This document shows positions 10,995 through 34,207 of a stretch of DNA of 64,000 nt, piece after piece (position 1 is the stretch's first letter; each line of letters opens with the position of its first letter). The position numbers were made by a program, and so were the translations under genes. Source of the DNA: Zobellia nedashkovskayae (GTDB taxonomy: Bacteria > Bacteroidota > Bacteroidia > Flavobacteriales > Flavobacteriaceae); assembly GCF_015330125.1 (NCBI RefSeq), contig NZ_JADDXR010000002.1, positions 2,802,685-2,866,684 on the forward strand. Reading direction: 5' to 3'. The notes beneath the pieces are model-generated. The model worked only from the letters and a program-made list of their open reading frames with translations. It did not search any database and was not told where the DNA came from.

Positions 10995-11576
10995 TTATCC
11001 GTGAATACTTTCTTTATTTCCTAGATTTTTCATTATTCCAGACTCATAATCCAGTAACTCCTGCCATTTTTTATCTACTTCTGTACGATTTCCGTATTGT
11101 CTAGCAAATTGCAAGAACATGGTGTAATGACCCGCTTCACTTACCATAAGCTTGTGGTAGAACTCTGCAAGTTCTTTGTCTTCTAATTCTTCTGAAAGTA
11201 ATCTAAAGCGCTCACAACTGCGCGCTTCAATTAATGCGGCATACAAAAGACGATGAACCAATTGGGTCGTGCGGCTTCCGCCTTTTGGGAAGAATTTAAT
11301 CAACTGAAGTACGTATTCGTCCTTTCTGTCACGCCCTAAAGTTTGTCCTCTGTCCGTAATTCGGTCATGTACCATTTTAAAATGGGCCATTTCTTCTCTA
11401 GAAAGTGCGATCATCTCCTCTACGAGCTCTGTATATTCCGGAAAACTTATAATTAATGATATGGCTGTGCTTGCTGCTTTTTGCTCACAGTACGCATGGT
11501 CCGTTAAAATTTCATCTATGTTTTTCTCAACAATATTCACCCATCTTGGATCAGTTGGTAACTTCAGGCCTAGCAT
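10995..11576 (-). CDS. miaE: tRNA-(ms2io6A)-hydroxylase, MiaE family
   Basis: Ferritin-like di-iron oxygenase that hydroxylates the isopentenyl group of ms2i6A at tRNA position 37. The 193 residues carry the expected carboxylate/His ligands: HAYCEQKAAS, REEMAHFKMVHD, EARSCERFR and SEAGHYTMF, that is, two E...ExxH sets. It is transcribed alone, divergent from the ebo operon (about 175 nt apart) and convergent with ppk1. Confidence 0.93.
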   Translation of the reverse strand: MLGLKLPTDPRWVNIVEKNIDEILTDHAYCEQKAASTAISLIISFPEYTELVEEMIALSREEMAHFKMVHDRITDRGQTLGRDRKDEYVLQLIKFFPKGGSRTTQLVHRLLYAALIEARSCERFRLLSEELEDKELAEFYHKLMVSEAGHYTMFLQFARQYGNRTEVDKKWQELLDYESGIMKNLGNKESIHG

Positions 11577-11645: not shown

Positions 11646-11673
11646 TTGTTTCTCCAAAGAATAATTAGTTTTG
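11646..11673 (+). promoter_or_regulatory. Putative promoter of the ebo operon
   Basis: TTG at 11646-11648, a 17-nt spacer, and TAGTTTTG at 11666-11673: a full match to TTG-N17..23-TAnnTTTG. Transcription would start near 11680, about 74 nt before the eboA ATG. Confidence 0.72.
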
Positions 11674-11753
11674 TGAATAGTTGTTTTTTATCATGACGAA
11701 AGGCACTAAAAATAGGGTTGTTACCACTTGTCAAGAAACCCGAATAACAGATT

Positions 11754-12611
11754 ATGGAATTAACCAAATTAGACCAAGAGCTTCAGTCTTTATTGAATAG
11801 GAATTTAGACGCTGCCACAGATTCATGGTTACAATCAAAATTAGAGCAAATCGTTGGCTCAAGTTCTACAAAGGACCTTTATATGACTTATAGCCTCTTG
11901 GCTAGTAAAATTGATTCAGACGCAGTTTTGAATCTGAGTTCAGATACGGATGAAGTAACCCAATATTTGCGAACGCAGAATGCCACGACTCTTCAGATAG
12001 CTCGGATTTATCTTTTGATAAAGGTATTGAAGGCAGACTCAGATTTCTTTGTACCTAAAGTGGCTAACTTAATTCAGGTTGCAGATACCGGGGAGCTTGA
12101 AACTTTTCTAAAGTATCTTGTTCTGTTACCTGATGCCGAAAATTATAAGCAGACTGCAGTAGAAGCATTACGTACGAACATTGCCACAATATTCGAGGCG
12201 ATAAGCATGCAGAATCCGTATCCGGCAAAATACTTTAATGATCAACAATGGAACCAAATGTTTCTTAAGGCCGCTTTTATGCAGTTAGACCTTTCGACCA
12301 TTTTAAGTATTGATGAGCGAGCGAATAAGGATTTGACACGTATTATATCTGACTATGCACATGAACGATGGGCAGCGTCACGAGAAATAGAACCATTATT
12401 TTGGAGACCTGTAGCCGCATTTTTAGATGAAAATCTGTTGAAAGATATAGAGCGCTTGTTTGCCAGCGAGAATCCTATTGAAAATAAAGTAGCGGCACTA
12501 TGTTGTTATACTTCTGAAAAGCCTATGGCTAAGGAATTATTGGCAAAGCATCCCGAGTTGAAAGCTCAAGTAGCGAACGAAAATATTACCTGGAAAAATA
12601 TAAAAGATTAG
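11754..12611 (+). CDS. eboA: EboA domain protein, first gene of the ebo metabolite-traffic operon
   Basis: A 285-residue all-alpha soluble protein without signal peptide or membrane segment; motifs include ERANKDLTRIISDYAHERWAA and SREIEPLFWRPVA. EboA has no known biochemical activity, but it is the hallmark of the ebo cluster found in many bacteria and carried into eustigmatophyte algal plastids. In Nostoc, ebo genes are needed to move a scytonemin precursor to the periplasm. Here it leads a tight run of seven genes with its own promoter; the gap to eboB is one base. The name rests mainly on the gene order eboA-F, which is complete. Confidence 0.88.
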   Translation: MELTKLDQELQSLLNRNLDAATDSWLQSKLEQIVGSSSTKDLYMTYSLLASKIDSDAVLNLSSDTDEVTQYLRTQNATTLQIARIYLLIKVLKADSDFFVPKVANLIQVADTGELETFLKYLVLLPDAENYKQTAVEALRTNIATIFEAISMQNPYPAKYFNDQQWNQMFLKAAFMQLDLSTILSIDERANKDLTRIISDYAHERWAASREIEPLFWRPVAAFLDENLLKDIERLFASENPIENKVAALCCYTSEKPMAKELLAKHPELKAQVANENITWKNIKD

Positions 12612-12612
12612 T

Positions 12613-13521
12613 ATGGAAGATAAAATGATGATAATCGACCCGCATGTACATATGTCATCGCGAACCACAGACGATTATGAAGCTATGGCCGCAGCCGGGG
12701 TTGTTGCAATAATAGAACCTTCTTTTTGGTTAGGACAACCAAGAACTCAAGTAGGTTCTTTTCAAGATTATTACAGTAGTTTAGTTGGTTGGGAGCCTTT
12801 TAGAGCTAGTCAATTTGGTATTCATCACTATTGTACAATTGGTTTAAACTCTAAGGAGGCAAACAATGAAGCTTTGGCGGAACAGGTTATTGAACTTTTG
12901 CCTCTATACGTCCATAAACAGAATGTTGTTGCCATTGGCGAGATAGGTTATGATGACCAAACCCCAGCGGAAGACAAGTATTTCCGTATGCAGCTAGAGA
13001 TGGCTAAAGAATTGGGTATGGTCGTTCAAGTACACACGCCTCACCGTGATAAAAAAGCAGGTACTTTAAAAAGTATGGAGGTTTGTTTAGAGCATGGTTT
13101 GGATCCATCGCAAGTGGTAATTGATCATAATAACGAAGAAACGGTTAAAGACGTTTTGGATAGAGGTTTTATTGCTGCATTTACTATTTACCCAAAAACA
13201 AAAATGGGTAACGAACGAATGGTAGAGGTCGTTAAAAAATACGGTAGTGCTAATATTATTGTAGATAGCTCTGCAGATTGGGGTGTTAGTGATCCTTTAG
13301 CAGTGCCAAAAACCGCAAACCTTATGCTAAAAAGAGGGATTGCAAGAGAAGACGTTGTTAAAACCTGTTACCAGAATGCGTTAGATATTTTTGGTACAAA
13401 TGGCAAGATGAAAGAAGAGCACTGGTTGAATCCAAAAGGTATTAACCAAGCCCAACTTTATAATGATAATAGCGTTCTAAGGGGGCAAGAGCCTAGAGTA
13501 GATTCTGATCAGATTAAATAA
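12613..13521 (+). CDS. eboB: EboB, TatD-family metal-dependent hydrolase
   Basis: A 302-residue amidohydrolase-fold protein. Metal ligands of the TatD type are all visible: DPHVHMS at residues 9-15, the Glu in AIGEIGYDD, His in VQVHTPHRD, His in VIDHNNEE, and the Asp in DSSADWG. TatD proteins are usually nucleases or deacylases; the substrate in ebo clusters is unknown. It starts one base after eboA and overlaps eboC by one base. ATG 12613 is kept as start; internal Met5/Met6 would remove only a few residues. Confidence 0.9.
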   Translation: MEDKMMIIDPHVHMSSRTTDDYEAMAAAGVVAIIEPSFWLGQPRTQVGSFQDYYSSLVGWEPFRASQFGIHHYCTIGLNSKEANNEALAEQVIELLPLYVHKQNVVAIGEIGYDDQTPAEDKYFRMQLEMAKELGMVVQVHTPHRDKKAGTLKSMEVCLEHGLDPSQVVIDHNNEETVKDVLDRGFIAAFTIYPKTKMGNERMVEVVKKYGSANIIVDSSADWGVSDPLAVPKTANLMLKRGIAREDVVKTCYQNALDIFGTNGKMKEEHWLNPKGINQAQLYNDNSVLRGQEPRVDSDQIK

Positions 13522-14423
13522 TGAATCGCACGTTTCTTGGTTATGCGCGATTGGCAAGACCTGCTAATTTACCCACAGCTGCCGCCGATATTTTGGCAGG
13601 TGTGGCTATTGGAGGTGCTTTTATGGGGGGCATTCAAGACGGTTTTATAGAGTCTAGTCTTTTACTAAATATTCTGTACTTAGTATTTTCATCGGTGTTT
13701 CTTTATGCCGGCGGGGTTATTCTTAATGATGTCTTTGACTTTGAGCTTGATCAGGTAGAACGTCCTGAGCGACCTATTCCTAGCGGTATAGTTTCGTTCA
13801 ATTCGGCTGCTCTGTATGGCGGGTTAACCTTAGTTATTGGGGTGTTATTAGCTTTTTTGGTCTCAAGAACTTCTGGTATAGTAGCCGTAGCACTTGCTTT
13901 GGCAATTCTTTTATACGATGCAATCGCTAAAAAGTATGATTTTTTTGGTCCGTTAAGTATGGGTTTGTGTAGAGGTATAAATTTGCTGTTGGGCATGTCT
14001 ATTTTAGGTAATTTCAATTCTTGGTTTATGGCCATTATTCCAATCGTATATATCTTTGCTATTACGCTGATAAGCAGAGGGGAAGTACATGGGAAAAACA
14101 AAAATCACATTGTGTTGGCAGGAGTGTTGTACGGCACAGTTATTTTAGCTGTAGCAACTATGGCCTTTTTACATACGGATGCCCTTTTATTTCCGTTATT
14201 GTTTTTAGTATTGTTTGCGTTCACGGTTTTTAGACCTTTAATAAAGGCACACTCCGTAAACTCACCAGATAATATTAAAAAAGCTGTTATGGCAGGTGTC
14301 ATAGCATTAATCTTATTGGATTCATCTATCGCCGTTGCATTTTTCGACTGGTGGTATGGATTAATTATATTGGCATTACTGCCTGTTTCAAAAGGCTTAT
14401 CTAAAGTGTTTGCCGTTACCTAA
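13521..14423 (+). CDS. eboC: EboC, UbiA-like membrane prenyltransferase
   Basis: A 300-residue polytopic membrane protein with about eight to nine hydrophobic segments. The first Asp-rich motif of UbiA enzymes, NDVFDFELDQVERPERP, lies near residues 69-85; the second region, LYDAIAKKYDFFG, follows further on. The UbiA family attaches isoprenoid chains to aromatic or sugar acceptors at the membrane; in the ebo cluster the acceptor is not known, but a lipid-linked carrier is a reasonable inference. It overlaps eboB by one base; 33 nt separate it from eboD. Confidence 0.92.
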   Translation: MNRTFLGYARLARPANLPTAAADILAGVAIGGAFMGGIQDGFIESSLLLNILYLVFSSVFLYAGGVILNDVFDFELDQVERPERPIPSGIVSFNSAALYGGLTLVIGVLLAFLVSRTSGIVAVALALAILLYDAIAKKYDFFGPLSMGLCRGINLLLGMSILGNFNSWFMAIIPIVYIFAITLISRGEVHGKNKNHIVLAGVLYGTVILAVATMAFLHTDALLFPLLFLVLFAFTVFRPLIKAHSVNSPDNIKKAVMAGVIALILLDSSIAVAFFDWWYGLIILALLPVSKGLSKVFAVT

Positions 14424-14456
14424 GGTCAATTTTTATCGGCCTTCAAAAGATATACG

Positions 14457-15617
14457 ATGTTTAAAACTATAGAGCAAAAATTTGAGGTTTCGTATCAATA
14501 TGGCCTCCACTTTACCGAAAATTTGTTCGGTACAGAGAATACCTTGTTCAAGGATATTATTAAGGCATATAAAAATGAGCCCGTAAAGCTTCTTTTTGTT
14601 GTTGATGATGGGGTAGCTGCTGCTCACCCGGACCTTATTAAAAATATAAAAGCCTACTGTCAACATTACCAAGAGAATCTGGTTCTTATGAAAAGTATGG
14701 TGGTGCAAGGTGGTGAAGCTTGCAAGAATGATGAAAGTCAAGTTGAAGATATCCTCAAGGCAGTTAGCGAGTATGCTATTTGTCGCCATTCATTTGTTGT
14801 TGTTATCGGTGGAGGCGCTGTAATAGACATGGCAGGATACGCTGCGGCAATAGCACATAGAGGTGTTAAGTTGATTCGTATTCCTACTACGGTACTTTCA
14901 CAAGATGATTCTGCTGTGGGAGTTAAAAATAGCGTGAATGCCTTTGGCAAGAAGAACTTTATAGGAACTTTTGCCCCTCCATATGCTATTATTAACGATA
15001 CTGATTTCCTTAAAACGTTGGAACAACGCGATTGGATTTCGGGTATTTCTGAGGCCCTAAAAGTTGCATTGATCAAAGATGTTGTCTTTTTTGAATACGT
15101 AGAAAAAAATGCACATTTATTGAGAGATAGAGATATGGAAGCCATGCAGTATACCATTTATAGGTGTGCAGAAATGCATATGCACCATATTGCTCAAGGT
15201 GGTGACCCTTTTGAAAGTGGTTCTTCTAGACCATTGGATTTTGGTCATTGGGCAGCACATAAATTGGAATATATGACTAACTACGAGCTTCGTCATGGTG
15301 AAGCCGTAGCAAAGGGTATTGTTTTAGATGTAGTCTATGCTCATTTAATTGGTTTGATTAATGAGGCCGATTTAAATCGTGTGGTTCGTGTTTTTCAGAA
15401 CATCGGTTTCGATTTGAGTTTTCCGTTGGCCACAGAAAAAGAGGTAGATGAATTACTTAATGGAATAGAAGAGTTTAGGGAGCATTTAGGTGGAGAACTT
15501 ACGATAACTCTTATTTCAGATATAGGTGTAAAACATGATGTTCACGAAATTGACCTACAGATTATGAAAAAGGCATTGGATTTGGTAAACGAAATTTCAA
15601 AACTTAAAGTAGAGTAG
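14457..15617 (+). CDS. eboD: EboD, 3-dehydroquinate-synthase-like sugar phosphate cyclase
   Basis: A 386-residue member of the DHQS/EEVS superfamily. The NAD-binding GGGAVIDMAG lies near residue 117, with the family stretches RIPTTVLSQDDSAVGVK and NSVNAFGKKNFIGTF. Zinc ligands are seen as Glu in GISEALKVALI, His in LRHGEAVAKG and His in DFGHWAAHKLE. It is probably not the housekeeping AroB: its place in the ebo run suggests cyclisation of a different sugar phosphate, giving a cyclitol-type building block. Gap to eboE is one base. Confidence 0.92.
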   Translation: MFKTIEQKFEVSYQYGLHFTENLFGTENTLFKDIIKAYKNEPVKLLFVVDDGVAAAHPDLIKNIKAYCQHYQENLVLMKSMVVQGGEACKNDESQVEDILKAVSEYAICRHSFVVVIGGGAVIDMAGYAAAIAHRGVKLIRIPTTVLSQDDSAVGVKNSVNAFGKKNFIGTFAPPYAIINDTDFLKTLEQRDWISGISEALKVALIKDVVFFEYVEKNAHLLRDRDMEAMQYTIYRCAEMHMHHIAQGGDPFESGSSRPLDFGHWAAHKLEYMTNYELRHGEAVAKGIVLDVVYAHLIGLINEADLNRVVRVFQNIGFDLSFPLATEKEVDELLNGIEEFREHLGGELTITLISDIGVKHDVHEIDLQIMKKALDLVNEISKLKVE

Positions 15618-15618
15618 C

Positions 15619-16812
15619 TTGCGTATAGATAACAATTTTCAACTTACATATTGCACCAATATCCATCCAGGATTTGATTGGAAGACTACTTTTGACAGTC
15701 TTAAAGAGCACGTTCCACAGATAAAGGAAAAGGTATCTCCTAATGAGCCTTTCGGACTTGGTTTACGATTATCTAATAAGGCTAGCGAAGAGCTTGCTCT
15801 GAACGGAAATCTGAACGAGTTTAAACAATGGTTAGTTGATAATCAGGTTTATGTGTTTACCATGAACGGTTTTCCGTATGGTAATTTTCATAATGAACGG
15901 GTTAAAGATGATGTTCATGCGCCAGATTGGACCACTCCGGAAAGGCTTATTTATACCAAACGTATGTTCGATCAGTTGGCAGCTTTGATTCCAGAGGGTA
16001 TTGCCGGTGGAATTTCAACATCTCCAATAAGTTATAAATATTGGCATGCTACGGAAGAAGCTACAAAATTAGCTTTCGAAACTGGAGCAAAAAACATGAT
16101 AGAGATTGCCATTCATCTCTATAATATAGAACAAGAAACGGGGAAGTATCTACATCTTGATATTGAACCGGAACCAGATGGCATGTTAGAGAACAGTGAT
16201 GAGGTATTGCAGTTTTTTGCAGATTACCTATTCCCTATTGGAATAGCTGTAATTGTTGATAAACTTGGTGTAAATGCTGATATTTCGGATGAAATAATAC
16301 GCCGTTATCTTACGGTTTGTTACGATATTTGTCATTTTTCATTAGCTTATGAGGAGCCCACAGATACCTTTGAGAAGTTCGCGAAAGCGGGAATTGTTAT
16401 AGGAAAAATCCAAGTAAGTGCTGCATTAAAGATTCTTTCAAATCCTTCAGGAAATGATAAGATATGGGAAGCTTTGACACTTTTTGATGAACCTACATAC
16501 CTTCATCAAGTAACAGAAAAGGTAGATGGAAAGGTGAAAACTTACAATGATTTGCCTATTGTACTTGAGAATAAAAGAGAATTTGAAGAGTTACGGGCAC
16601 ATTTTCATGTGCCAATATTTTTAGAACGTTTTGGTGCGTTAGATTCTACGCAAGACCATATTCTAAAAGTGATGAAATATATAAAGGACCATCCTGTTTC
16701 TGAGCATTTGGAAATTGAAACCTATACTTGGGATGTGCTTCCGTCTGCTTTGAAAAAAGACCTTTCCGAGTCTATTATTAGAGAGATTGATTGGTTTGTA
16801 GAAAAGTTCTAG
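15619..16812 (+). CDS. eboE: EboE, metabolite traffic protein (xylose-isomerase-like TIM barrel)
   Basis: A 397-residue soluble protein of the sugar isomerase/epimerase-like TIM barrel class. I see barrel-type metal or substrate positions in LHLDIEPEPDG, CYDICHFSLAYEEP and GKIQVSAAL. The start is a TTG at 15619, one base after the eboD stop: no in-frame ATG occurs until well into the barrel, and the N-terminus RIDNNFQLTYCTNIHPG is family-like. Its reaction is unknown. It lies 3 nt before eboF. Confidence 0.9.
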   Translation: MRIDNNFQLTYCTNIHPGFDWKTTFDSLKEHVPQIKEKVSPNEPFGLGLRLSNKASEELALNGNLNEFKQWLVDNQVYVFTMNGFPYGNFHNERVKDDVHAPDWTTPERLIYTKRMFDQLAALIPEGIAGGISTSPISYKYWHATEEATKLAFETGAKNMIEIAIHLYNIEQETGKYLHLDIEPEPDGMLENSDEVLQFFADYLFPIGIAVIVDKLGVNADISDEIIRRYLTVCYDICHFSLAYEEPTDTFEKFAKAGIVIGKIQVSAALKILSNPSGNDKIWEALTLFDEPTYLHQVTEKVDGKVKTYNDLPIVLENKREFEELRAHFHVPIFLERFGALDSTQDHILKVMKYIKDHPVSEHLEIETYTWDVLPSALKKDLSESIIREIDWFVEKF

Positions 16813-16815
16813 AAG

Positions 16816-18195
16816 ATGAAGAAAACACTAGTGATTAATGTTGTGGGTTTGACCCAACGTCTTATTGGGGAGCATACCCCGTTTATTGAAGCTTTTTTAA
16901 AAAAAGGTAAATCTGCTTATATAAATCCGGTTTTGCCAGCAGTAACATGTTCGGCGCAGTCAACCTACCTAACAGGGAAAACGCCTGATGCACATGGAAT
17001 TGTGGGTAATGGGTGGTATTTTAAAGATGAATGCGAAGTAAAATTCTGGCGCCAGTCCAATAAATTGGTACAGAGTGAAAAACTTTGGGACGAGCTAAAG
17101 AAAGAAGACGAGCATTTTACATGCGCGAATCACTTTTGGTGGTACAATATGTATTCTAGGGTTGATTTCAGTTTAACACCAAGGCCTAATTATTTGGCCG
17201 ATGGCCGAAAAATTCCAGATGTATATTCGTATCCTCCTGAATTAAGGGATACATTACAAAATGAGTTGGGTACTTTTCCGCTCTTTCAATTTTGGGGCCC
17301 AAAGACATCAATAAAATCTAGTAAATGGATTGCAGATGCAGCCATACGTACAGATGAGATGCATAATCCTACCTTGTCTCTGGTTTATCTTCCACATTTA
17401 GACTATAATTTGCAACGCCACGGACTCAATTTTGATAAGATTAAAAAAGACCTGAAAGAAATAGATGGGGTGGTAGAGCAGTTGGTGAACCACTTTCAAA
17501 AGCGTAATGCACGAATTGTGTTACTCTCTGAATATGGTATTACAGATGTGAACAATCCTATTCACTTGAATAGAATTTTACGTTCTAAGGGGTATATAGC
17601 TATTCGTGAAGAACGAGGGTTGGAGCTTTTAGATGCAGGCCAAAGCAAGGCTTTTGCAGTGGCTGATCACCAAATAGCACATGTTTATTTAAATGATCCT
17701 TCCCTAAAGTTAGAGGTTAAGGCTTTACTGGAAACAGTTTCCGGAGTTGAGAGGGTGCTTATGGGCGAAGAGCTTGAGAAGGCTAAATTAAATCATGAAA
17801 GAAGCGGTGATTTAGTTGTGGTTGCAGATGCTGATTCTTGGTTTACGTATTATTTCTGGTTGGATGACGCTAAAGCACCGGACTATGCTCGCATGGTTGA
17901 TATTCATAAGAAACCAGGTTATGACCCTGTAGAAATGTTGACGAATCCTAAGGATAAGTTAGTAATGGCGAAGGTTGTTGCTATGTTGCTTAAGAAGAAA
18001 ATGGGGTTCAGGACGGTAATGAATATAATTCCGTTGGATGCAACCTTAGTAAAAGGTTCGCACGGGAGAATACCGGAAGACAAAGCAGATTTTCCTATCT
18101 TGATTACAGATCAAATTAACAGTGTCTTTAATGATGATATTAAAGCGACTGATGTATATAGTATCTTGAAGAAACACGTAACCGAAGAAGAATGA
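16816..18195 (+). CDS. eboF: EboF, alkaline phosphatase / nucleotide pyrophosphatase-superfamily protein
   Basis: A 459-residue protein of the type I phosphodiesterase/nucleotide pyrophosphatase fold. The nucleophile Thr is in LPAVTCSAQSTYLTGKTPD, a metal Asp and His in PHLDYNLQRHG, and a C-terminal His in KGSHGRIPED. However, the usual first Asp (ILDG-type) reads INVVGL and the usual SDHG reads SEYG, so several metal ligands are changed; this could be a family feature of EboF or a sign of altered chemistry. No signal peptide, so it should act in the cytoplasm. It overlaps the next gene by 4 nt. Confidence 0.88.
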   Translation: MKKTLVINVVGLTQRLIGEHTPFIEAFLKKGKSAYINPVLPAVTCSAQSTYLTGKTPDAHGIVGNGWYFKDECEVKFWRQSNKLVQSEKLWDELKKEDEHFTCANHFWWYNMYSRVDFSLTPRPNYLADGRKIPDVYSYPPELRDTLQNELGTFPLFQFWGPKTSIKSSKWIADAAIRTDEMHNPTLSLVYLPHLDYNLQRHGLNFDKIKKDLKEIDGVVEQLVNHFQKRNARIVLLSEYGITDVNNPIHLNRILRSKGYIAIREERGLELLDAGQSKAFAVADHQIAHVYLNDPSLKLEVKALLETVSGVERVLMGEELEKAKLNHERSGDLVVVADADSWFTYYFWLDDAKAPDYARMVDIHKKPGYDPVEMLTNPKDKLVMAKVVAMLLKKKMGFRTVMNIIPLDATLVKGSHGRIPEDKADFPILITDQINSVFNDDIKATDVYSILKKHVTEEE

Positions 18196-18554
18196 AGTCT
18201 TTCTTTAAAATAGTAGGTTCTGTATTTGCAGTTCTTTTTACTTGGGCGGCATATCTACAATATAACGACCCAGATGCTACTATTTGGTTTATTATTTATG
18301 GCTTAGCTGCTTTTATATCGGTTCTTTTTGTGGTAAACCGTTTACCGTTTTTGATAACAATTTTTTCCTTTCTATTGGCAGCGGCAGGTGCTTATAGTCA
18401 ATGGCCTGCACAATTTCAAGGTTTTACTATTGGAGAAGGAGATATAGAGAATATTGAACGCGGTAGAGAAGCTTGTGGTTTGCTAATTATAGCAGTGGTA
18501 ATGCTGTTGTACGCTCTACGAATTCGTTTTGTAAAAAGGGGATTAAAGATCTAA
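18192..18554 (+). CDS. Transmembrane 220 (TMEM220) family protein, seventh gene of the ebo run
   Basis: A 120-residue membrane protein with about four hydrophobic helices and the family-like motif LQYNDPD after the first helix; a basic C-terminus (RFVKRGLKI) would stay inside. No function is known. It starts inside the eboF stop (ATGA overlap), so it is translated with the ebo operon and is a candidate membrane partner for the traffic proteins. Its 3' end overlaps the convergent dnaX 3' end by 12 nt, with no terminator between them. Confidence 0.85.
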   Translation: MKSFFKIVGSVFAVLFTWAAYLQYNDPDATIWFIIYGLAAFISVLFVVNRLPFLITIFSFLLAAAGAYSQWPAQFQGFTIGEGDIENIERGREACGLLIIAVVMLLYALRIRFVKRGLKI

Positions 18555-20372
18555 ATCAAAAGTTTTTCTAAGCAAATCTATAGCAGGATTCTTCTCCCTA
18601 AGTTTTTCATATTTTTCCTCAGGTGTAAACGCGAATTTTTTAGCTATTTTTTCGTTAACCGTAATCTTAAGTTCAATGAAATAATTGTTGAGATTTTTTC
18701 TTAAGTGTTCCATAAGGCCATATTGCTCTCGCTCAATTTCCTTTTTCATTGTTTCGTTAGGCAATTCGATCCAAATGGTTTTGTCTTGAACTAACTTGGG
18801 TATATCTACGCTAAGGTTGGATGCTAGTATTTTCTTACCATCTATATCGATTTTATGAACAAAATCGGCCCAATGTTTTTGCATAGCCTCTTCGGTAAAG
18901 GCATCTTTAGGAAGTTTACTTTCGTCAATAGTATCATCTTTACGGCTTAGCTCATGCTCTTTCTTTGCTTTTAGACTAGAAATAGAGAGTCCAGAAACCC
19001 TTTTTCCACCACCAATGTTAATTTTATTTACCGGAGCGGGTTCGGATTTAGGTGTTTGAGTAGTCTCTTTTGCCTTAGGTTCGGCAACTGCTAAAGAGTT
19101 TGATGATTGTTTTGTCTCCTCTGCCTGATAATTTGTGGCTTCCTGTTTTTTAACTTCAACAGGTGCTGGAGTAGCTGATTTTGTATGACCTGGAGAAGTT
19201 GTGGTTTCCTCGGAAGTTTTTTTAACAGAGCCATTTCCTCTAAAAAAGGATGCAGGTGCAATAAAATCAATAGTAGAACCGTCTAGGACGTCAGATTCAG
19301 AGTTTTTTTTTTCGGCCTCAAATCCAATTGAAGCTAATTTCATTAAAGTAAGTTCTACCAGCAATCGTTGATTTTTACTGGTCTTGTACTTTAAATCGCA
19401 GTCATTGGCTATGTTCAAAGCTTGCATAAGAAGCTGCATGGAGGTCTTTTTAGATTGCTCTAAATAGTTCTGTTTAGCTACATCACCTACTTCCAACAAA
19501 TTAATGGTGTCTTGATGTTGACAAACCATTAGGTCTCTGAAATGGGAAGCTAAGCCACTTATAAAATGATGTCCGTCAAAACCTAATGACAAGGTTTTGT
19601 TGAACAAAAGTAGTAACTGTGGAATGTTGTGCTCTAAAATAAAATCTGTTGCTGAGAAATAAGTATCGTAATCTAGAACGTTTAGGTTTTCGGTTACGGC
19701 TTTTCTTGTAAGTTCTTTTCCTGAAAAACTAACAACCCTATCAAAAATAGAAAGGGCGTCTCTCATGGCGCCGTCGGCTTTTTGAGCTATGATATGCAAA
19801 GCATCATCATCTGCAACTATACCTTGGTTTTCGGCTATGTACTTCAAATATAGGGCAGCATCCTTAACTGTAATTCGTTTGAAATCAAATATTTGACAAC
19901 GAGAAAGTATCGTTGGGATTATTTTATGTTTTTCAGTGGTGGCCAGGATGAAAATAGCATGCTTTGGGGGTTCTTCAAGTGTTTTTAGAAAAGCATTGAA
20001 GGCAGATTGTGAGAGCATGTGCACCTCATCTATAATATATACTTTGTATTTGCCAACTTGGGGAGGTATGCGTACCTGGTCAATAAGACTACGAATATCA
20101 TCTACAGAGTTATTAGAGGCAGCATCAAGCTCAAAAATATTGAATGCAAAATCTTCATCTTCACTTTCTGTTCCGTCGGAATTTATTTGTTTGGCAAGAA
20201 TACGCGCGCAGGTAGTCTTACCAACACCCCTGGGGCCACAAAATAAAAGGGCCTGTGCCAAATGATTATGTTCAATGGCGTTGGTTAGGGTATTAGTAAT
20301 GGCCTGTTGCCCCACAACATCCTTAAATGTCTGAGGTCTATATTTACGTGCCGATACAATAAAAGGTTCCAA
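18543..20372 (-). CDS. dnaX: DNA polymerase III subunit gamma/tau
   Basis: Clamp-loader ATPase, 609 residues in the full (tau) form. Walker A GPRGVGKTT lies near residue 46, DEVH and the sensor region follow, and domain III ends near residue 350. The four-Cys zinc module of E. coli DnaX is missing: that region reads INSDGTESEDEDFAFNIF. A Pro/Thr/Lys/Glu-rich linker (about 370-480) leads to the polymerase-binding C-terminal domain. At E354-K356 the gene has ten A in a row (+ strand T at 19303-19312), exactly where a short gamma form would end. Single gene, convergent with the ebo operon. Confidence 0.97.
   Translation of the reverse strand: MEPFIVSARKYRPQTFKDVVGQQAITNTLTNAIEHNHLAQALLFCGPRGVGKTTCARILAKQINSDGTESEDEDFAFNIFELDAASNNSVDDIRSLIDQVRIPPQVGKYKVYIIDEVHMLSQSAFNAFLKTLEEPPKHAIFILATTEKHKIIPTILSRCQIFDFKRITVKDAALYLKYIAENQGIVADDDALHIIAQKADGAMRDALSIFDRVVSFSGKELTRKAVTENLNVLDYDTYFSATDFILEHNIPQLLLLFNKTLSLGFDGHHFISGLASHFRDLMVCQHQDTINLLEVGDVAKQNYLEQSKKTSMQLLMQALNIANDCDLKYKTSKNQRLLVELTLMKLASIGFEAEKKNSESDVLDGSTIDFIAPASFFRGNGSVKKTSEETTTSPGHTKSATPAPVEVKKQEATNYQAEETKQSSNSLAVAEPKAKETTQTPKSEPAPVNKINIGGGKRVSGLSISSLKAKKEHELSRKDDTIDESKLPKDAFTEEAMQKHWADFVHKIDIDGKKILASNLSVDIPKLVQDKTIWIELPNETMKKEIEREQYGLMEHLRKNLNNYFIELKITVNEKIAKKFAFTPEEKYEKLREKNPAIDLLRKTFDLDL
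19303..19312 (-). other. A10 slippage site in dnaX (probable tau-to-gamma switch)
   Basis: On the coding strand the codons are GAA AAA AAA AAC. One extra A gives GAA AAA AAA AAA CTC TGA, ending at 358 residues; one A fewer gives a stop (TAG) after about six new codons, ending near residue 362. Either slip yields a protein with only the ATPase and collar domains, that is, a gamma-like form. Thermus dnaX makes gamma by transcriptional slippage on an A run; the same is inferred here. Confidence 0.6.
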
Positions 20373-29680: not shown

Positions 29681-32600
29681 ATGATAAAACTTTACTCAAA
29701 CCCCCGTGTAGTTATTTTTATGATTCTTTTAACTATAACCTTTTTTAAGGGTAATAGCCAAAACATTTGTCTGGATTCTTCGCCGAGTACGGGAATCGTT
29801 CCCGTTCGGATTTCAGTCAGTTCGGACGACGGCAACGGCCCGTGCAACGTTATGGACGGCAATTTTTATTCCCGATGGAGTTCCAACGGTTTGGGTGAAT
29901 GGATGACCTTTGATTTTGGGGAGACCAAGAACGTGTCCGATGTGGAGATCGCCTTTTTCTCGGGAAACCGAAGGTCCAGTAGTTTCGACCTTGCCGTATC
30001 GGATGATGGTTCTAACTGGACTAACGTTTTGGAAGGCCAAAGGAGCAGTGGCACTTCCATATCTTTGGAGGCTTATAGCTTTCCGTTGCAAAGTGCAAGG
30101 TACTTGCGCTATATAGGCCAAGGCAATTCACAGGAGAACAATGACTGGAACAGTATTTCTGAGTTCAGAATAAACGAACCAAGACTACCTGAAGTTGAAT
30201 GTATTGAACCAAGTCCCTCTTCCGGCATAGTGCCAAAAAGAATTAATGCTGTTTCAGATGAGGGCAACGGTCCCTGTAATGTGATGGACAATGATTTGGT
30301 CTCCTATTGGAGTAGCAATTTTTCGAGCAAATCCATAACTTTTGAATTGGATGGTTCAAGTGAAATAGACCAAGTTGAAATAGCCTTTTTGTCAGGTGAT
30401 ATAAGGGTTAGCGTGTTTGATATTTCAGTATCGGATGATGGTTCTAACTGGACAACGGCACTAAAGGACGGGTCTAGCAGCGGAGCCTCGCTGGCCTTGG
30501 AAAAATTTAATTTTCCCGTCCAAAATACCAAGTATTTACGATATACGGTTCAAGATTCCCAAGACAATAATGATTTAGGAGGAGTTACGGAATTCCGAAT
30601 AAACAAGTTTGTTTTACCTGAAAGGGATTGTCTGGATTCTTCGCCGAGTACGGGAATCGCTCCCGTTCGGATTTCAGTCAGTTCGGACGACGGCAACGGC
30701 CCCTGCAACGTTATGGACGGCAATTTTTATTCCCGATGGAGTTCCAACGGTTTGGGTGAATGGATGACCTTTGATCTTGGGGAGACCAAGAACGTGTCCG
30801 ATGTGGAGATCGCCTTTTTCTCGGGAAACCGAAGGTCCAGTAGTTTCGACCTTGCCGTATCGGATGATGGTTCTAACTGGACTAACGTTTTGGAAGGCCA
30901 AAGGAGCAGTGGCACTTCCATATCTTTGGAGGCTTATAGCTTTCCGTTGCAAAGTGCAAGGTACTTGCGCTATATAGGCCAAGGCAATTCACAGGAGAAC
31001 AATGACTGGAACAGTATTTCTGAGTTCAGAATCAATGAGGCCAAAATTAATGAATTCAGGCCTTTTGTGACTACTTGGAAAACTGATAATCCAGGAATAT
31101 CAGGAGATGATCAAATTACTATTCATACTTATGAAAATGCAAGTTTTTTTGATTTTGAATATGATTATACAGTCGACTGGGGTGATGGAACAACTACCTC
31201 GGGCTTAACTGAAGATGCTATCCATACCTATGATATTCCTGGTACCTATGAAGTATCAATATTTGGTGATTTTCCTGGTATATATTTTGGTTTTTCTGGA
31301 GAGAATGACGAAAAAAAACTTCTTACAGTTGAACAATGGGGTGATAATGTTTGGGCTTCTTTCCATTCGGCATATAACGGTTGTTCTAATCTAGATATTA
31401 AGGCAACTGATATTCCTAATCTTACAAACGTAACATCATTTGATACCACTTTTGCGTTCTGTTCCAACCTAAAATGGAATTCAACAATAAATTCTTGGGA
31501 TACTAGTAATATTACCGATATGGCATATACATTCTACTCAGCTAGCAATTTCAACCAAGATATAAATAACTGGGATGTGGTTAATGTTATTACAATGGCA
31601 AATATGTTTAATAGAGCTATAAGTTTTAATCAAGATATCAACAATTGGGATGTAAGTAGTGTTAGCACCATGAGTTCAATGTTTGAAAGTGCAATTGCTT
31701 TTAATGGTGATATTAGTAATTGGGATACATCTAATGTTTTGAATATGAGAAATTTATTTCTATCCGTATCCTCTTTTAACCAAGATATTTCGAGCTGGAA
31801 TACTTCTAAGGTGAAATATATGAGCCACATGTTCAGAGGGGCAACTTCTTTTGATCAAAATGTAGGAGGCTGGAATGTAGAAAATGCCGAAAGTATGTTC
31901 TCGATGTTTTCGGGTGTAATCCTTTCCACTGAAAATTATGATAAACTATTATTAGGATGGAGTAATCAAGAGCTAAAAAATGGAGTAACTTTCGATGCTG
32001 GTGACAGCCAATATTGCCAAGGCGAAAATTACTTATATAAATTAGAAGATGAATTTGGATGGAATATTTCAGATGGAGGAATAACTGCTGATTGCAAAAA
32101 CTCTCAACGCCCTTTTATTACCACTTGGAAAACAGATAATGATGGAACTTCAGAAGATAACCAAATAACAATACCAACTTCTTCAGAGGAAACTTACAAT
32201 TATGACATTGATTGGGGTGATGGTACTATAGACACTGGAGTAACAGGAAAGATAACACATACTTATGCAATAGCTGGAACCTATGAAATTTCTATCTCTG
32301 GAGATTTTCCAAGGATACATTTCACTTATTTAGAAGATTTAGAGAAAATACTATTTATAAATCAATGGGGAGATATACAATGGTCTTCCATGGCAGCTGC
32401 TTTTGATCGATGTATTAATCTTCAAATATTAGCAGCTGACGCTCCTGATTTATCTAACGTAACTTCTCTTTCAACTATGTTCAGAAGTGTTGATAACATA
32501 AATAATAATCTGAATACTTGGGATTTTAGTACAATTACCAATATGCGTTATATGTTTAGTGAGTCATCTAATTTTAATCAAGATATTAGTAGTTGGGATA

Positions 32601-34207
32601 CTAGTAGTGTTACTTCTTTATCGGGTATGTTTTATAAAACGGATTCCTTTAATCAAGACATTAGTAATTGGGACACAAGTAATGTTACCAATATGAGTTA
32701 TATGTTTTATCAAGCAGAGTCTTTCAATCAAGACATTAGTATTTGGAATACTAGTAAAGTAACAAATATCGATGGTATGTTTTATAAAGCATCAGCTTTT
32801 AATCAGGATCTTTCGGATTGGGATTTTTCTTTAATTACTTGGATGTTTCAGACATTTCCTTATTCTGGTATTAGTGTAGAGAATTACGATAGTATGCTCA
32901 TTTCGTGGTCAGAGAAAGAAGAGTTAACTAATTTTCGCTTAGATGCAACTGGTTTAAATTATTGTGAAGGGGTATTTGCTAGACAAAAATTAATTGATAT
33001 AAATAATTGGAACATAATTGATAGCGGTTTAAATTGTATTAACACATCACCATTTGTAACTAGTTGGAAAACGGATAACATAGGGTTGTCAAATAACAAC
33101 CAAATAACGATACCTACTTCTTCTGGAGAAACTTATGATTACGACATTGATTGGGGAGATGGCACTTTAGATATAGGGGTTACAGGAGAAATTACACATA
33201 CTTATGTAACTACAGGTACGTATCAAGTAAGTATTACAGGTTCTTATCCTCAAATAGCATTTGGTGATTCTGGAGATAAGAATAAGCTTTTATCTGTAGA
33301 TCAATGGGGAGATATGCCTTGGAGTACTATGTTTTTTGCTTTTGCGAATTGTGAGAATGTTCAAATTTTAGCCACAGATTCTCCTAATTTACTTAATGTA
33401 ACTTCATTATATGGTATGTTTAGAAATGCTGATAGTGTCAATACAGATATAAGCGAATGGGAGACTAGTTTCGTTACTAATATGGGGCAAATGTTTTTTG
33501 ACGCGGATAGCTTTAATCAAGATATAAGTAAATGGAACACTAGCAGGGTTACTAATATGAGTTTTATGTTCTTTGCAGCGGACTCTTTCAATCAAAACAT
33601 AAATGAGTGGGATACTAGTAGTCTTATCAATCTAGAATATGCATTTTTCAATGCGATTTCATTCAATCAAAATCTATCCTCCTTTGATATTTCTAAGGTG
33701 ATAAACTTATCGGGTGTATTTTCTGATTCAGGTTTGAGCTCATCAAATTATGATAGTACCCTAATCGGGTGGGCGGAACAGGATGATTTAATACAGAATA
33801 TTACTTTAGACGCAGATAACATAGCATACTGTGGAGGAGCTGACGCACGTCAACAATTAATAGATACTTATCATTGGATTATAAATGATGCTGGCCTAGG
33901 CTGTGAAGCGCTAGAGGTGCCTTTTGATAATAATAGTGGAAAGGGAATAATAACAAATACGCCTATGTTATCCCCAAATCCTGTGATAGCTGAAACAATA
34001 TTAAGTTTTGAAAAACCGGTTCAATTAACTGAGATAAATGTATTTGATGTTTCTGGAAGATTGGTACATTCATATAGTGGATCAGCCGTATCTGATGATG
34101 GGGAGTACTTATTAAACGTAGAAGAACTTCCTTCAGGAACTTACTTTATCAGGTCACTAGACGCTCAAGGAATGCTGTACCAAAAACAGATGGTAATTAT
34201 GAAATAG
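29681..34207 (+). CDS. Giant T9SS-exported surface protein: three discoidin (F5/8 type C) modules, three PKD-BspA (DUF285) modules
   Basis: A 1508-residue secreted protein, probably an adhesin or glycan-binding surface protein. Signal peptide at residues 1-27 (ends FKGNSQ). Three discoidin-like modules begin at Cys30, Cys174 and Cys317; the first and third are nearly identical in DNA, the second has diverged. Then three modules of about 320-350 residues, starting near 460, 810 and 1123, each open with a (S/R)PFxTxWKTDN segment and a PKD-like strand set (VDWGDGT ... HTY), followed by BspA/DUF285 repeats (SFNQDISxWDTSxVTxMxxMF). A T9SS type A sorting domain runs from about 1429 to the end. No catalytic domain is seen. 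Single gene with hairpins on both sides. Confidence 0.93.
29768..30171 (+). repeat. Discoidin module repeat, copy 1
   Basis: A 404-bp stretch that recurs at 30629-31032 with three base differences (near 29799, 29842 and 29915). Offset 861 bp. It encodes the first F5/8 type C module of the giant surface protein. Confidence 0.95.
30629..31032 (+). repeat. Discoidin module repeat, copy 2 (third discoidin module)
   Basis: Partner of 29768-30171. The middle discoidin module (from 30200) lies between them and is clearly diverged, so the identical copies are not adjacent. Confidence 0.95.

Follow-up and report, generated by a model that had tools for sequence, protein, structure and literature searches.

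An eboABCDEF cluster of Zobellia nedashkovskayae and a TMEM220-like protein as its candidate membrane partner

The ebo gene cluster received its name in 2016, together with the proposal that its product is an isoprenoid-cyclitol compound (PMC5133447; statements on this and the other articles cited refer to the parts of their text that were available). A cluster of this kind, followed directly by a gene for a TMEM220-like membrane protein, lies in a 64,000-nucleotide (nt) stretch (the window; positions 2802685 to 2866684) of the 4.94-Mb genome of Zobellia nedashkovskayae. The original prediction for this stretch suggested that the genes assemble a lipid-linked cyclitol, an idea that is the proposal already published in 2016 (PMC5133447). 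The operon reported in that article from Bacteroidota and eustigmatophyte plastids has the same gene set in the same ABCDEF order; no TMEM220 partner is described for it, and the term TMEM220 does not occur in the article text available. The operon is therefore of a known kind, whereas its link to TMEM220 is new here: in the available parts of the literature on ebo and TMEM220 we found no description of such a partnership and no biochemistry of TMEM220.

Deletion of each ebo gene studied in Nostoc punctiforme (eboD was not analysed) was found in 2018 to leave the scytonemin monomer in the cytoplasm, showing that ebo is required there for metabolite export to the periplasm (PMC6282210). The Nostoc cluster shares the EboA, EboB, EboC, EboE, and EboF families with the Zobellia locus, while eboD lies outside the Nostoc cluster, which acts with the scytonemin genes (PMC6282210), and our searches of cyanobacteria did not find TMEM220. 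A full ebo set is also part of the EDB cluster of Pseudomonas fluorescens NZI7 (PMC6282210), which has been tied to repellence of Caenorhabditis elegans and to indole compounds (PMC9655573). In 2022, EboC proteins of Maribacter (UbiA-297), Zobellia uliginosa, and Algoriphagus were reported to farnesylate 8-hydroxyquinoline-2-carboxylic acid (8-HQA) in membrane preparations, with 6 of 14 acceptors used by the Maribacter enzyme (PMC9235831). UbiA-297 is the same prenyltransferase in an ebo context, with one homologue from Zobellia, and was tested as a single enzyme (PMC9235831). The product in flavobacteria, described as undefined in the original prediction, is still so in vivo, but EboC had already been assayed in vitro. 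Human TMEM220 resides in the Golgi, and its knockdown disturbs both this organelle and secretion (PMC6979480); it is compared here with the bacterial protein by its name and not by sequence.

Seven open reading frames on the + strand at 11754 to 18554 encode EboA to EboF and then the TMEM220-like protein (PF15071), with successive intergenic gaps of +1, -1, +33, +1, +3, and -4 nt. With six genes on one strand in the order ABCDEF, the locus is a complete, standard eboABCDEF cluster, and the protein models, Pfam domains, gene order, and strand all bear out the original prediction in this regard. The TMEM220-like gene (18192..18554, + strand) overlaps eboF by 4 nt, and its product, a four-helix membrane protein, matches the Pfam family with an E value of 2e-23 (83.4 bits; cut-off, 27). 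Identical gene order, with the same miaE and dnaX borders, was found in many Flavobacteriaceae, and the arrangement is therefore not due to chance. From comparison of genomes, loci, and protein sequences, we consider it reasonably probable that ebo and TMEM220 form a functional module in Bacteroidota, with TMEM220 as an accessory membrane partner.

Among 296 Bacteroidota genomes, EboC (counted at an E value of 1e-20 or lower) was present in 24 and TMEM220 in 40, and 18 genomes contained both. Thirty-nine of the TMEM220 matches exceed the cut-off; the match in G085 falls under it, and no copy was recovered from the stretch of that genome. TMEM220 occurs in 18 of the 24 EboC genomes versus 22 of the 272 others (Fisher p, 3e-13) and, when counted by genus, in 12 of 15 versus 14 of 124 (p, 5e-8), neither value being corrected for kinship. 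No EboE match was obtained in any of the 22 Bacteroidota genomes that have TMEM220 without EboC, with a query that does find EboE in other genomes. The same association is seen in 259 Flavobacteriaceae, where EboE was present in 48 genomes and TMEM220 in 64 (63 over the cut-off; the match in G396 scores lower and could not be located a second time). TMEM220 accompanies EboE in 43 of these 48 genomes versus 21 of the 211 without EboE, and in 38 of the 43 the two genes lie within 10 kb of each other (a hand count of the listed places). Three of the five Flavobacteriaceae with EboE and no TMEM220 show eboE alone in the stretch read. In these three, G339, G558, and G564 (loci L186, L189, and L187), the eboE-like gene lies between dnaX and miaE, and the genome search yielded no TMEM220.

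The ebo loci compared for linkage were the best 80 of 575 confirmed EboC-profile stretches (at least 596 matched), from which L139, L156, L160, and L161, with EboC and neither EboB nor EboE, were left out to give 76. These four EboC-like prenyltransferase genes have no other ebo genes nearby, and TMEM220 is present in two of the four genomes. TMEM220 was found within the fetched stretch of 55 of the 76 named ebo loci. For the 21 loci without TMEM220 in the stretch, 20 genomes were searched (all except that of L157), and a copy was found in 16 of 16 non-cyanobacterial genomes and in 0 of 4 cyanobacterial ones; one of the 16 matches, that for L093, is partial (31.4 bits) and located at a contig end. 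Loci L088, L095, L097, L138, and L146 end at a contig end in or beside the ebo cluster, so that TMEM220 may adjoin them.

TMEM220 stands in at least four arrangements relative to ebo: after eboF, before eboA, divergent before eboA, and convergent after eboF. It follows eboF on the same strand in Flavobacteriaceae and also follows eboF in one Neomarinimicrobiota record, precedes eboA in Pedobacter and relatives, is divergent before eboA in Chitinophaga (in one locus with three genes between), and is convergent after eboF in Hymenobacter. A tree of 112 TMEM220 proteins, built quickly from few columns, without bootstrap and weakly resolved, places 37 of 38 after-eboF copies in one 46-row set (support of 95 by the Shimodaira-Hasegawa-like approximate likelihood ratio test, SH-aLRT). 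The set is completed by one lone copy, the copy of Hymenobacter, two from genomes whose ebo genes lie elsewhere, and those of five relatives that have TMEM220 without ebo. All 18 before-eboA copies fall outside it, and 17 of them form one clade (SH-aLRT, 99); the Neomarinimicrobiota copy is likewise outside the set, on a long branch. Different TMEM220 lineages thus seem to have become linked with ebo more than once, which favours a functional tie. The same evidence bears on the idea that the membrane protein TMEM220 is unrelated to ebo, has a role perhaps in sugar metabolism, and merely travels nearby. Such an idea would suit the many genomes in which TMEM220 stands alone, sometimes near genes for sugar-isomerase-like, GFO/IDH/MocA, and 3-keto-disaccharide hydrolase proteins, yet linkage repeated by different lineages and in different positions, together with unlinked presence in ebo-bearing genomes, would be hard to obtain by drift, and we regard this explanation as quite unlikely.

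Several observations weigh against a functional module of ebo and TMEM220. TMEM220 is missing from 6 of the 24 EboC genomes of the Bacteroidota survey, and the Flavobacteriaceae G533 and G504 hold larger, multi-gene ebo clusters without it. Genomes with TMEM220 alone include a further 22 from the phylum to which L121 belongs, none with an EboE match and one with its TMEM220 match under the cut-off. A search of 146 cyanobacteria, five of them with EboE, did not recover TMEM220; its controls gave no match, although the same model detects TMEM220 in Bacteroidota. The four cyanobacterial ebo genomes without TMEM220 include one of these five. Its absence from the search results for ebo-bearing cyanobacteria indicates that ebo can work without TMEM220. 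In addition, the ebo loci compared are top-scoring matches and not a random draw, and comparison with solved folds gives no function for TMEM220. The expectation in the original prediction that TMEM220 would track with ebo in relatives is thus borne out in Bacteroidota and Flavobacteriaceae, but the tie is not strict, since many genomes carry TMEM220 without ebo, the cyanobacteria searched yielded none, and it outlasts ebo in some relatives.

The AlphaFold2 model of the Zobellia TMEM220 consists of four helices (predicted local distance difference test score, pLDDT, 93.2). Residues N25, D26, D28, W32, E89, R92, E93, and G96 are invariant in 72 aligned TMEM220 sequences, and the combined motif is matched by 109 of 113 distinct proteins; the four exceptions comprise a truncated protein, a protein carrying an insertion, and two proteins with another residue in place of the second Asp. 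Positive charge gathers at the N terminus, in the middle loop, and at the C terminus, whereas the two loops that bear the motifs are net negative. By the positive-inside rule, this pattern places both motifs on the periplasmic side, and the invariant polar site of TMEM220 therefore probably faces the periplasm. Human TMEM220 presumably belongs to the same Pfam family, PF15071. In one locus (L190:3719-3976), a truncated second TMEM220 copy lies about 2 kb upstream of a full TMEM220-ebo cluster.

In five genomes (G134, G566, G354, G441, and G493), TMEM220 stands between dnaX and miaE without eboA-F. A dnaX tree, quickly built and without bootstrap, places these five genomes in four positions among ebo-bearing relatives, requiring four label changes, two of which are forced by well-supported (starred) branches; the TMEM220 proteins of all five fall in the set linked after eboF. 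Both states occur within one genus with similar borders: G549 has TMEM220 with eboA-F, and G325 has TMEM220 with a TonB-type receptor gene and no ebo gene in the stretch read, and the two TMEM220 copies are sisters. TMEM220 can, as judged from these loci, outlive ebo at the same place. The loci were found via TMEM220, so that loss of both genes is left out of the count.

These loci support the strongest rival explanation, namely, that TMEM220 has no part in making the ebo product but serves to receive it, take it up, or protect the cell from it, and that lineages without ebo have kept the protein as they would still meet the product. TMEM220 is kept at the dnaX-miaE locus after ebo is gone, in repeated and in part forced changes, and TonB-dependent receptor genes adjoin non-ebo TMEM220 genes in 19 of 56 rows. 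On the other hand, loci picked via TMEM220 leave double loss uncounted, the receptor seeds were chosen after the loci had been seen, many rows are close kin, and the neighbour enrichments are partly circular. The 104-locus ebo set of the neighbour enrichment is also not entirely distinct, with identical dnaX in L028 and L105 and in L183 and L114. Most flavobacterial receptor-side copies form a separate 13-row clade and are not remnants of ebo-linked genes, and retention of TMEM220 may be a lag in its loss. We therefore judge an uptake or protection role to be unlikely, if somewhat less so than an unrelated protein travelling near ebo. In its broadest form, TMEM220 would be a widespread receiver, importer, or protector for a prenylated cyclitol-type product, carried by ebo makers next to the pathway and kept by neighbours that have lost ebo so as to use or tolerate the shared product; this seems to us more doubtful than either. 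If it were true, ebo would be the source of a public good or a weapon, and a first molecular role would be at hand for a family with a member in the human Golgi. Non-ebo TMEM220 genes beside TonB-dependent receptors, in a clade of their own, were observed in L177, L165, L172, L180, L181, and similar loci, which also lie near genes of the sugar-isomerase-like, GFO/IDH/MocA, and 3-keto-disaccharide hydrolase families.

Within the cluster, eboD (14457..15617, + strand; PF01761, 124.6 bits) encodes a sugar phosphate cyclase that differs from AroB at three positions. The genome contains two genes with a dehydroquinate synthase domain, eboD and one outside the operon, and in the genome search the latter has the higher PF01761 score (144.1 versus 127.7 bits). 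Lys, Arg, and Asn of the non-operon enzyme align with His241, Ser257, and Asp261 of EboD. Across 21 EboD sequences, the first and third of these positions are always His and Asp, and the second is Ser in 18 and Ala in 3. We take the Lys, Arg, and Asn to be the shikimate-pathway substrate binders of AroB (K250, R264, and N268 in its numbering). EboD scores 234.7 bits with the TIGR01357 aroB model, under the cut-off of 305. A plain dehydroquinate synthase feeding aromatic synthesis is what the NCBIfam model PRK06203, which carries that name, would suggest for EboD (562.9 bits; cut-off, 333), but a separate gene with a higher PF01761 score retains the three residues that are changed in EboD. Because this second gene is present and the three residues are replaced, EboD is probably not the enzyme of the shikimate pathway, and the plain synthase reading is in our view very improbable. 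The distinction between EboD and AroB on which the original prediction depended is thereby supported, and neither of the two outcomes that it named as refuting was observed. The residue changes would fit a substrate free of the carboxylate, for example, sedoheptulose 7-phosphate.

The prenyltransferase gene eboC (13521..14423, + strand) encodes a UbiA-family membrane protein that scores 369.4 bits with model NF035940 (cut-off, 250); its nearest solved relative is DGGGP synthase (E value, 2e-21). In the first Asp-rich motif, NDxxDxxxD, residues N69, D70, D73, and D77 are invariant in 12 sequences, as expected for the UbiA superfamily. UbiA enzymes usually carry a second Asp-rich motif; in its place EboC holds a conserved S-R-x-E-V, with S185, E188, and V189 invariant in the 12 sequences. 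The in vitro farnesylation of 8-HQA by three EboC proteins (PMC9235831) raises the possibility that the ebo cluster makes a farnesylated quinoline, for example, farnesyl-8-HQA. The acceptors in that study were, however, a chosen panel (PMC9235831), no ebo gene is by its family evidently quinoline-forming, and EboD would be left without a role, so that we hold a quinoline product to be improbable.

The remaining proteins were assigned from models, except EboB and EboF, for which no dedicated model exists and whose placement relies on Pfam domain, gene position, and relatedness. EboA (11754..12611, + strand), a helical-repeat protein and possibly a scaffold, scores 150.8 bits with the NCBIfam EboA domain model (cut-off, 50) and 169.3 bits with a stricter EboA-family model, under its cut-off of 320. 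EboB (12613..13521, + strand) is a TatD-like metallo-hydrolase (PF01026, 66.2 bits) whose nearest solved relative is AF_1765 (E value, 8.5e-27). A TatD DNase assignment is not supported, as EboB reaches 38.9 bits with TIGR00010 (cut-off, 206) and is recognized only by the broad PF01026. EboE (15619..16812, TTG start, + strand) scores 477.5 bits with NF035939 (cut-off, 250), a metabolite traffic protein model with a TIM barrel name in NCBIfam; it gave no Pfam match and no relative of known structure at an E value of 1 or lower. EboF (16816..18195, + strand) is a hydrolase of the type I phosphodiesterase fold (PF01663, 216.4 bits) with phosphonoacetate hydrolase and NPP among its relatives. A second, weaker EboF-like gene (254 bits) occurs just upstream of TMEM220-eboABCDEF in Pedobacter (L031:4250-5581) and has a match in L133; L031 and L133 are probably one genome. 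Identity to the nearest named relatives is 95% for EboA (Z. barbeyronii) and 87% for EboC (Z. russellii).

The sequences themselves show the operon, the residue changes in EboD, the co-occurrence and recurring linkage of TMEM220, and the invariance of its polar residues, and the case for a module is built on these counts. From the protein families, we infer a tentative ebo-TMEM220 route, including its substrate, step order, membrane side, and the action of TMEM220. EboD would cyclise a carboxylate-free sugar phosphate, probably sedoheptulose 7-phosphate, and EboB, EboE, and EboF could then modify the ring by trimming or rearrangement, its phosphate groups included. EboC would attach a prenyl chain, in the inner membrane, to the ring or to an aromatic acceptor, and EboA may be a helical-repeat scaffold that holds the enzymes together. 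TMEM220 might handle the prenylated product at the periplasmic face by means of its N-D-x-D...W and E-x-x-R-E-x-x-G site. The chemistry listed is possible, though we place it well below the existence of the module itself. The ebo cluster spans many phyla and an algal plastid. TMEM220 offers an additional genetic handle with an invariant polar site, and ebo and TMEM220 could each explain the other.

Upstream of eboA, a promoter-like element (TTG-N17-TAnnTTTG; 11646..11673, + strand) has the form that we presume to be that of Bacteroidota promoters. The original prediction placed the operon behind a consensus promoter; the -7 box TAnnTTTG is conserved in 5 of the 6 upstream regions that were aligned (that of this locus included), but the pattern itself is no rarer than chance, with 3 occurrences found versus 2.04 expected. 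The operon is bordered by two genes that lie outside it and recur in relatives. A divergent miaE-like gene (10995..11576, - strand; PF06175, 146.5 bits) forms a conserved border of the locus upstream, and a convergent dnaX gene with clamp-loader Pfam matches (18543..20372, - strand) lies downstream. At their 3' ends, dnaX and the TMEM220 gene share 12 nt (18543 to 18554), an overlap also seen in many relatives. Elsewhere in the window, at 29681 to 34207, a 1,508-amino-acid protein is encoded that contains three F5/8 type C stretches and six DUF285 stretches.

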